Below the pieces are notes generated by a model. It saw only the letters and a program-made list of their open reading frames with translations. It had not been told where the DNA came from and made no database searches. A stretch of 64,000 nucleotides of DNA from Microthyrium microscopicum. Its lineage: Eukaryota > Ascomycota > Dothideomycetes > Microthyriales > Microthyriaceae. This document shows, in pieces, positions 51,958 through 57,749 of the stretch. The translations under genes were made by a program, and so were the position numbers. Location: contig MU004234.1 in assembly GCA_010405405.1 (NCBI GenBank), positions 4,671-68,670 on the forward strand. The letters are read 5' to 3'. The stretch's first letter is position 1. Each line of letters starts with the position of its first letter.

Positions 51958-52776
51958 CTAAAGCTCCATAAGTTTGTCTTCATCATCTATTTCATCCTCA
52001 AGATCAACATTTTCCTCCAAAACCATTTCCAAAGCATCCGGACCAGATTCGCCGTCGTCTCCAAATGTCCTCTCACCTTGCATTGAAGATAGGCTTGATT
52101 TGATTCCCTTCTTGTCCCTGTATCTATGTTTTCGAAGAACCTGGTACTGAATGGCAAATATGCGCTTGCCCTCAAGCCCAGCGCCGCCATCACGGCTATT
52201 CTCTTTACTCATTTCACCACCGCCTTCAAGAGTTGGAACATCCACGGGTATTCCTCCTGTCACTGCCATTGCAATTTCCTTCGTGGGTACTTTGGCATCA
52301 AGACTCGCGGCTGATCTTGATGATAGGCTCTCTGTGTACTTAAGAGAATCAGTGACCAGTAACCCAACGATTAGATATGCGGTCCTATCGGTCCAAGTTA
52401 AGCTGTTTACAGCCGCATGGAGTTGTGCATCAGCTTTGATGTTTTTCAGTACATCTGCATAATCTGAGATGGAAAGCTTTGCGACTTTGGCAGCGTTGAT
52501 CTCTGGCGAGTCTGAATGAGATTTTTCGGTAGAGAACTTGAGCACATCGGCCAGTGCAGCGTATATTGAGGTCCCTTGCTTGGACTTTAAGAGCTCTGAA
52601 ACATTCGAGTAACCTTCGTCCGTGAGCACGTCTCCGCGAATAGTAGATGTGTCCTTGGGTGCTTTGCCAGATAACGGATTTTGATGGTTACTGACTACCC
52701 TTCCTAGCCATTCCTCTGGCTTATCGGTTCGGAGAGTGGACCAAGAATCGAGCAGGTAGAAGCTGTCTTTGCTCAT
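51958..52776 (-). CDS. Gasdermin-like pore-forming protein (RCD-1/HET-Q1 type)
   Basis: A single ATG-started frame of 272 aa, the size of known fungal gasdermins (RCD-1, HET-Q1). There is no signal peptide. The central segment 'TAYLIVGLLVTDSLKY' (132-147) followed by Ser-rich 'SLSSRSAAS' resembles the beta-hairpin strand region of the pore-forming domain ('Y.VTGL.IA...'). 'KRIFAIQYQVLRKHRYRDKKG' (204-224) forms a last strand and basic stretch. The final 33 residues are very acidic (16 Asp/Glu), a plausible short autoinhibitory tail like that removed from HET-Q1 by proteolysis. The gene is divergent from a CHAT-protease NLR, the partner type often found beside fungal gasdermins. The family call rests on fold-like pattern, size and context, not an alignment. 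Confidence 0.7.
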   Translation of the reverse strand: MSKDSFYLLDSWSTLRTDKPEEWLGRVVSNHQNPLSGKAPKDTSTIRGDVLTDEGYSNVSELLKSKQGTSIYAALADVLKFSTEKSHSDSPEINAAKVAKLSISDYADVLKNIKADAQLHAAVNSLTWTDRTAYLIVGLLVTDSLKYTESLSSRSAASLDAKVPTKEIAMAVTGGIPVDVPTLEGGGEMSKENSRDGGAGLEGKRIFAIQYQVLRKHRYRDKKGIKSSLSSMQGERTFGDDGESGPDALEMVLEENVDLEDEIDDEDKLMEL

Positions 52777-53364
52777 TTTTTATAGGCTTGGGGTACTGGT
52801 GTCTTCGTGCACAATCTAGACAATTTGGAAAAGGATAGGACAGATCAGGAAGTGGGGTTAGTCAGTGTTGGTGATGAGGCTTCCAACTTGAGGCCGGGAA
52901 ACAGTTTGGTGTAGCTGTCGTAGGCGGTTGGCCTCCACCAATCACAGACAGTGATGGCAAAATCAGAACTTATGTTTATTAATAAGACTTCGTAATGCAG
53001 GAAGTACGACCAGTTCTAGGCCACTTTGAAACTCGCGAAGGTGTGGTGCTTGGCGAGCCGGAAGAGGAACGCCATGCATGAGCAGACTGTGCAAGGGAAC
53101 GACAACGGCGCTTTGGATGTGCCAGGAATTCAGGATAATCGTCAGCACTCAAAGCCTTGTCAAGAATCTACTCTCTTGCGTTTTGTCCTTTGTTCACGGT
53201 AAACCTTCTGTTTGGCGCCATAGCGAAGTGTGCCTACGGCATTCTCAACGAGTCATAGGATACGTTGAGTCGAAAGCAACGGACTCCGGTTGGCGTTCAT
53301 CCTGAAGCTTCATAAGTATTTCTCCGTGGGACCTCCTATCGACGTTCAAAGAAAGCATTAAGAA
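52777..53364. promoter_or_regulatory. Bidirectional promoter of gasdermin-like/CHAT-NLR pair
   Basis: 588 bp separate the two divergent start codons. There is no supported coding frame. Shared regulation of pore protein and protease is likely from the arrangement; no specific motif is claimed. Confidence 0.55.
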
Positions 53365-56300: not shown

Positions 56301-57749
56301 CAACTGTTCATGGAACAAGACCGTTCCTGTGACGTGCTTGGAGCAGAGCAATACAAATACATGAATGAGGAATTCGCAAAGGCATTAGCTGGCTTTACTG
56401 ATTCTGGCTTTATCAGTGGACCGGAATCTACAAATTTCGGTACTGCTCTATGGGACGTTTACTACAACGTTCATCCCATCCTCACTATATGTTTGAGAGC
56501 CGCACTGAACGATAGTGATACTACTAGCGTGGACAAATTCATCGTCCCTGTTGCATTCCAAAGGTTCTATGAGCGACGCAATTTGTTGGAATTTCCCGAA
56601 AACCTAGCCCTTGGAGATTGGAGTGATGCCAGAGAGCAGATCAACTTCGAGTTTTCCAACTATGTAACGTCCGTGAATCTGTCATTGTCAATCAGAATGA
56701 CTTACGACAATTACAAATGTGACACGTTGAGTGTCATCCGGGGTCTAGAGTGCCGTGATGCCCGAGCACTCATGGTTGCCCACACACTCCAAAACCGCAG
56801 CATAGACTACCTTCTCGACGCGCTATGGGATATTAAACCAACTACATTTTCTGAGGCTCGAAACTCTTTCAACATGTTTGGACTCAAAACGCTGAGAAAG
56901 CTCAGCAAAGGTGTCAAGGCCCCGACCGATGACATCGACAGGTCCAACATTTCATTCTTCTGTATAATAGGAGTGTTCTGTGTAGGAAAAATGATGGATG
57001 CAGCCATGTCCGCATACAAGCTTGGTTTCAATATGGGTATATACCGAAAGCACTTGGAAAGATTGAAAACATATGGTGCAGCCGAATCATCTGCGGCCAA
57101 GGAGTTGAATGCCATGCTGAAATCATTTGAAGGACATCTGGATTATATCGATAGGGGTCTTTCCAACAGATCTATCGAAGAAGATAACCTGGCCTCTAAG
57201 GTAGCTCAGACGGGTCAAGCGGAAGCTTTTCTGGCTTTGCAGAAGGGTCTGGGAAGAGTTGGTGATCTAAACTCGCTTTCTGAACGTGTGCAACAGGCCA
57301 AACTAGTATCAAATTTCAACACGCTATCTCGGAACATACATGGCGGCGACGAATATCAGGCTCAAGCAGAGGCCGTGGTTGGGCTTTTCTTTAGAAGCCG
57401 AAATGGAGAAGACATTTCCATCGATGAAATCGAGGGCCTTGAGAAGATTTCACACGACTACCTGCGTCAGAACTTACTCGGAGGAAGCAGTAATCCCGAG
57501 CGGATGGTCTCACTACATCATCATTTGATTACTCTCGCCATAGTGCGGGACGATATACTGCGGGCCAAGGAGCATTTAAAAGCGTCACGCCCTTATCTCT
57601 TGCAGTTGCCCGAAAAGGAAGAGCCACGGCTGTCGATTGAGACAGTACGCAAGGATTTTGAAAACTGGATCGAGGCAAGAAAACGTCTGGAGCAATTGTT
57701 GCAGGAGAGGGAAGCAGAGGCAGTATTGAATAAAGGTAGCAACTCATAG
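53365..57749 (+). CDS. CHAT protease-NTPase NLR-like protein
   Basis: The five-exon model is 53365-53497, 53731-53806, 54034-54588, 54640-55609 and 55824-57749 (1219 aa), every junction phase-consistent. Residues 175-385 form a CHAT (caspase-like) domain with His in 'VHLDVHG' (H248) and Cys in 'IMNACQSA' (C294), so the catalytic dyad is present. A STAND-type NTPase follows: Walker A 'GIAGSGKS' (436-443), Walker B 'YLVLFDSID' (511-519), 'LILFVSRDE' and 'GGNPLA' (617-622). About 580 helical residues follow, lacking recognisable LRR, WD40 or ankyrin repeats; they may be TPR-like. An apparent in-frame TAA at 54590 lies inside a 51-bp intron. Likely role: sensor whose protease activates the adjacent gasdermin-like protein. 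Confidence 0.88.
53498..53730 (+). repeat. Introner-like element, copy 1 (intron 1)
   Basis: This 233-bp intron (GTAAGC...TTCGAG) is far longer than the usual 45-75 bp here. It shares CTAGTGGTGGCT at +54 from the donor, a CTATGGTTCCCACCACATGC block and the 3' end TGCTAACAAATTCGAG with introns 2 and 4 of the same gene. Confidence 0.8.
53807..54033 (+). repeat. Introner-like element, copy 2 (intron 2)
   Basis: This 227-bp intron (GTAAGG...GCAAG) has CTAGTGGTGGCT at +54, then GCACATTAGATGG (copy 1: GAGCATTCGATGG), a CTATAGCTCCCAATGGATGC block and the 3' end TGCTAACAAAAGCAAG. It is phase 2, unlike copy 1 (phase 1). Confidence 0.8.
55610..55823 (+). repeat. Introner-like element, copy 3 (intron 4)
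   Basis: This 214-bp intron (GTACGT...TTCCAG) has CTAGTGGTGGCT at +53, a CTATGGTTCGCACCAAATGC block and the 3' end TACTAACAAATTCCAG. It is phase 0. The three copies thus occupy three different phases in one gene. Confidence 0.8.

Follow-up and report, generated by a model that had tools for sequence, protein, structure and literature searches.

Background

Genes for fungal gasdermins (fGSDMs) often have protease genes as neighbours. Of fGSDM genes, ~80% are clustered with protease genes and 19% lie near CHAT genes, and dozens of the clustered proteases are NLRs or NLR-like proteins with a CHAT domain (PMC10197012). Clusters of a fungal gasdermin with a CHAT-NLR are on record (PMC10197012, PMC12881547 and PMC9815663, citing Clave et al. 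2022). The subject here is a pair of divergent genes in a 64,000-nucleotide stretch of DNA (the window) from the ascomycete Microthyrium microscopicum, starting at base 4671 of contig C5 in a genome of 36.9 Mb and 20 contigs. One is a single-exon gene for a gasdermin-like protein of 272 residues (51958..52776, - strand); the other is a five-exon gene for a CHAT-NACHT (NLR-like) protease of 1219 residues (53365..57749, + strand). The pair is likely to constitute a two-gene, pyroptosis-like cell-death unit, made up of a fungal gasdermin and its dedicated CHAT-NACHT activator.

HET-Q1 of Podospora anserina (278 residues) is cut by HET-Q2 at F238, losing 40 residues, and is then toxic (PMC10989679, PMC12881547). 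The same fungus also has a CHAT protease with TPRs that reportedly activates the gasdermin next to it (PMC12881547). RCD-1 of Neurospora crassa (257/244 residues) operates through two allelic variants, RCD-1-1 and RCD-1-2, which act together and have no inhibitory C-terminal domain; the trigger is co-expression of the two alleles rather than a neighbouring protease (PMC11760362, PMC12881547). In Aspergillus fumigatus, the heterokaryon-incompatibility locus hetB has a CHAT protein as its candidate product (PMC11138114). What stimulates these pathways is named as a major open question in PMC12881547.

The M. microscopicum locus has the layout of the gasdermin clusters with CHAT-NLR or CHAT-TPR (Q2-like) proteases, in that a gasdermin-like gene lies less than 10 kb from a CHAT gene fused to an NLR-type NTPase. 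It differs from the published clusters in two respects: Pfam identifies no WD40, ANK or TPR repeat in the C-terminus of the partner, and the 272-residue protein has no match in Pfam, NCBIfam or PADLOC. Gasdermin/CHAT-NLR clusters having already been published, the locus adds a member to a known class; the kind of system is already described in fungi, and the family of the smaller protein is unannotated in the libraries searched.

With HET-Q1/HET-Q2 the pair shares the length of the gasdermin-like protein (272 versus 278 residues), a short C-terminal segment following F238 and a protease partner, although the shared number 238, in two proteins compared without alignment, may be coincidence. On the other hand, HET-Q2 is a 388-residue S8 subtilisin-like protease and the partner here is CHAT-NACHT; het-Q1 and het-Q2 are, moreover, idiomorphs at one locus, whereas here both genes lie side by side. 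In bacterial gasdermins, too, the inhibitory piece is C-terminal and short and the gene has a protease gene as neighbour, but they are prokaryotic and give no sequence match to the 272-residue protein in PDB or Pfam searches.

The gasdermin-like protein

The open reading frame of the smaller gene is intact, starts with ATG and belongs to a conserved family, and a chance reading frame is rejected on that ground. A single-sequence search of 5.8 billion proteins returns six relatives (E 1.9e-84 to 1.7e-40) and a profile search, with the best 8000 candidates scored, adds five (weakest E 1.4e-25), for a total of at least 11, with 34-59% identity to the window copy. The 12-row family alignment has invariant residues R205, I206, F207, A208 and Y211, and the block AYLIVGLLV (within TAYLIVGLLV, residues 132-141) is strongly conserved. 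The nearest named relative, for this gene as for its neighbour, is in Oculimacula yallundae (Helotiales, Leotiomycetes); none is confirmed in viral or prokaryotic contig collections, and a second copy is not found in the genome that carries the window.

An AlphaFold2 model built from 12 sequences is of low confidence (pLDDT 45, pTM 0.46). Compared with known structures by VIA-align, this model finds gasdermins as the top 16 of the 23 PDB entries listed, with fungal RCD-1 first; by Foldseek, the top six rows are gasdermins, none with an E-value at or below 0.001. Bacterial gasdermins are also among the structural matches. The best match covers residues 2-238 (52063..52773, - strand), the predicted pore-forming domain, and the matching mostly stops at residue 238, directly before a conserved acidic tail. 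(An earlier model from seven sequences, with pLDDT 33.0 and pTM 0.19, is useless as a structure; it gives no structural match among the 29 chains aligned and is no more than a weak negative control.) The predicted fold is thus, at low confidence, closest to that of gasdermins, RCD-1 foremost.

Sequence comparison makes no such connection. Neither the 272-residue protein nor any of the 12 family members matches a Pfam family, three members have no match in NCBIfam or PADLOC, and phmmer searches of PDB sequences with three single proteins and two profiles yield no link to a gasdermin. (Matches to antibody heavy chains in the PDB searches, with E 0.0048 and weaker, are taken as artefacts.) The initial annotation had proposed a gasdermin: the fold prediction leans that way, and the Pfam and PDB sequence searches do not. 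The Pfam Gasdermin family (PF04598) has zero matches across the genome. The same genome has 16 S8 protease matches, all within 14 regions of 9.8-9.9 kb, and a scan of their 2819 frames of at least 30 residues with the family profile detects no paralogue beside these proteases (best E 2).

The tail (residues 239-272; 51961..52062, - strand) is the proposed inhibitory segment. Sixteen of its last 33 residues are D or E and one is K or R, and 11 of the 12 family members have 12-18 acidic residues in the corresponding 33 (P0006 ends before the tail). The reading frame, the TAYLIVGLLV strand motif and the acidic 33-residue tail had all been noticed at the outset, and all are present. A G-E-R-x-F-G junction precedes the tail and is conserved: G234 in 12/12 members, R236 in 10/12, F238 in 11/12 and G239 in 11/12. 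By analogy with HET-Q1, the segment around G234-x-R236-x-F238-G239 is proposed as a candidate cleavage region, and the tail may hold the protein inactive. A length of 272 residues, with 34 following F238, fits the size (~245-280 residues) and the short C-terminal segment of protease-activated fGSDMs.

P0023, from Akanthomyces muscarius (Hypocreales), comprises 138 residues and represents the C-terminal half of the family only. That half is nearly identical to the matching half of P0020, junction and acidic tail included. P0023 is either a fragment or an incompletely modelled gene, and is a sign that the family extends beyond Leotiomycetes.

The CHAT-NACHT partner

The partner's five exons lie at 53365..53497, 53731..53806, 54034..54588, 54640..55609 and 55824..57749 (+ strand throughout, as for the introns). 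All four introns are GT..AG, and the spliced product has zero internal stops and exactly the 1219 residues originally assigned to it. Exon 3 encodes the N-terminal region and the start of the CHAT domain, including His248; exon 4 encodes the end of CHAT, with Cys294, and the NACHT/STAND NTPase, both Walker motifs included; exon 5 encodes a GGNPLA motif and then ~580 residues devoid of a recognised domain, the proposed sensor.

The CHAT assignment, also part of the initial annotation, holds up under profile search: the domain scores 55.7 bits (Pfam cut-off 24) over residues 201-362, corresponding to profile positions 110-272 of 289. A histidine and a cysteine form the catalytic pair of CHAT proteases; we take H248 (within LDVHG) and C294 (within NACQSA) to be that pair. 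In the seven-row alignment of the partner family, the histidine is kept in 3/3 rows that have residues there, and the cysteine in 6/6 such rows. Walker A (GIAGSGKS, 436-443) and Walker B (LVLFD, 512-516), which had likewise been picked out, are present in all seven rows. The NACHT match of the 1219-residue protein itself falls just below the Pfam cut-off (24.3 bits versus 26.7), but all seven rows, this one included, match NACHT with E of 0.1 or less (best 5.2e-9). Profile and motif matches together confirm the domain assignment, CHAT plus a NACHT/STAND-type NTPase. The gene is the only CHAT match in its genome.

That the partner's C-terminus has no recognised repeat is borne out: Pfam identifies no domain in exon 5 and none of the superstructure-forming repeats (LRR, WD40, ANK, TPR) of NLR/STAND receptors, and a weak TPR/ARM match (E 0.095) appears in one of the seven family members. 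The O. yallundae relative is 46-50% identical at residues 601-720, 25-41% at 721-900, 10-23% at 901-1140 and 37% at 1141-1200. Such rapid divergence would fit a sensor role. A bolder suggestion, which we put forward tentatively and regard as rather less probable than its opposite, is that the pair represents an unannotated, divergent ascomycete branch of gasdermins that is tail-inhibited and CHAT-NLR-activated, and whose activator has a ~580-residue, fast-diverging sensor of a type other than the WD40, ANK and TPR repeats known from such receptors.

Three of the four introns (intron 1, 53498..53730; intron 2, 53807..54033; intron 4, 55610..55823) are copies of one ~200-nt element; intron 3 (54589..54639, 51 nt) is ordinary. 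The element has a core, AGTGGTGGCT..CAG.GCATT.GATGG, and a common CTAACAAA near its 3' end. Copies related to it are also present on further contigs: L004, L006, L008 and L005, the last with five places within 3 kb. Allowing up to two mismatches, the core pattern matches at eight places in the genome, of which two lie in the CHAT gene; the reversed control has 0. The three related introns fit introner-like elements (PMC4457414).

Conservation of the pair

The start codons of the two genes are 588 bp apart, in divergent orientation, across an intergenic region at 52777..53364. About 80% of fGSDMs are clustered with a gene for an S8 or CHAT protease, and the CHAT gene at this distance agrees with that pattern. 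In O. yallundae, the neighbouring tags VTL71DRAFT_9542 and VTL71DRAFT_9541, on a contig of 702,392 nt, are relatives of both genes, with protein identities of 45% and 37%. Two further relatives, P0002 and P0012, are probably linked as well: both are on 38,449-nt contigs, taken as the same contig. The expectation that orthologous loci would keep the pairing is accordingly borne out for two of the 11 relatives of the smaller protein, and could not be shown for the other nine, which have no partner on a contig of equal length and are counted as no data rather than as absence (three of them are on contigs shorter than 2 kb). For the remaining six, the partner search covered proteins of roughly 670 residues or more, among the best 7999 candidates; gene calls split by introns would escape it.

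Proposed mechanism and alternatives

Residues 1 to ~238 of the 272-residue protein would constitute the pore-forming domain, kept inactive by the last ~34, acidic, residues. The 1219-residue protein is probably the activator, in which a CHAT cysteine protease (His248/Cys294) would be joined to a STAND/NACHT switch and a trigger-sensing C-terminus. A trigger would lead to NTPase-driven oligomerisation of the receptor, CHAT would cut the gasdermin near G234-E-R-T-F-G239, and the freed domain would form membrane pores, with death of the hyphal compartment as the outcome, in allorecognition or defence. All of these steps are inferred: the cleavage and where it takes place, tail inhibition, the making of pores, oligomerisation, sensing by the C-terminus and what the trigger is. 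The 272-residue protein has the same plan as HET-Q1, and a unit that senses, cleaves and makes pores is the simplest reading of the locus; because a CHAT protein is the candidate hetB product in A. fumigatus, a role in allorecognition is plausible. This self-contained arrangement had been suggested initially, and finding CHAT together with a STAND NTPase speaks for it. The two outcomes named beforehand as counting against it, a predicted fold unlike gasdermins and no pairing at orthologous loci, did not occur, although neither result is a strong one; the suggestion has support in part, and its central idea is probably correct. The idea is not new, such clusters being described in PMC10197012, PMC12881547 and PMC9815663.

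On a different account of the locus, the 272-residue protein would not be a gasdermin but would serve the CHAT-NLR as substrate or adaptor, being a lineage-specific effector of some other fold that is cut or bound. The absence of sequence similarity to gasdermins and to every Pfam family, a model of low confidence and Foldseek E-values that are not significant would all be expected on that account. Yet gasdermins, fungal ones first, take the first six places in Foldseek and the first 16 of 23 in VIA-align, and the protein agrees with HET-Q1 in its length and in having a conserved junction ahead of a short tail, so that we consider a non-gasdermin improbable.

Slightly less probable still is a gasdermin with a CHAT-NLR that activates it without cleavage, for example by binding or by an allelic co-assembly in the style of RCD-1. 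RCD-1 is the closest fold match of the model and acts through two allelic variants with no inhibitory C-terminal domain (PMC11760362); set against this are an intact and conserved CHAT dyad and the conservation of a short tail and its junction, of the kind seen in cleaved HET-Q1. That the two genes are unrelated and divergent by accident is very unlikely: pairing is seen in 2/11 relatives only, one of them through the equal size of 38,449-nt contigs alone, but the tags in O. yallundae are adjacent, at 45% and 37% identity, and the second pair on the 38,449-nt contigs points the same way.

The preferred reading, a gasdermin cut by its CHAT-NACHT neighbour, would place a compact receptor-protease-pore pathway in two genes lying side by side, one of them for a pore-former that the libraries searched do not recognise. 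If true, it would widen the fungal gasdermin family on structural rather than sequence grounds. With one copy of each gene found in the genome, the pair would also be a minimal system for learning what fungal CHAT-NLRs sense.

Genomic surroundings

A bacterial or phage defence island is rejected for this locus, the genome being 36.9 Mb in size and the partner gene having spliceosomal introns. Adjoining the pair, at 49725-51700, is an AMP-binding (acyl-CoA/4-coumarate ligase-like) gene that is apparently split by introns; its frame 49725-50639 matches Pfam AMP-binding with E 9.3e-34. On the opposite flank, at 60006-63602, is a gene for a phosphatidylinositol-specific phospholipase C (PI-PLC-X and -Y). 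Positions 1-8000 of the window, near the start of contig C5, have a G+C content of 17-18%, compared with 43-50% elsewhere, and are possibly a mutated repeat or a subtelomeric block.
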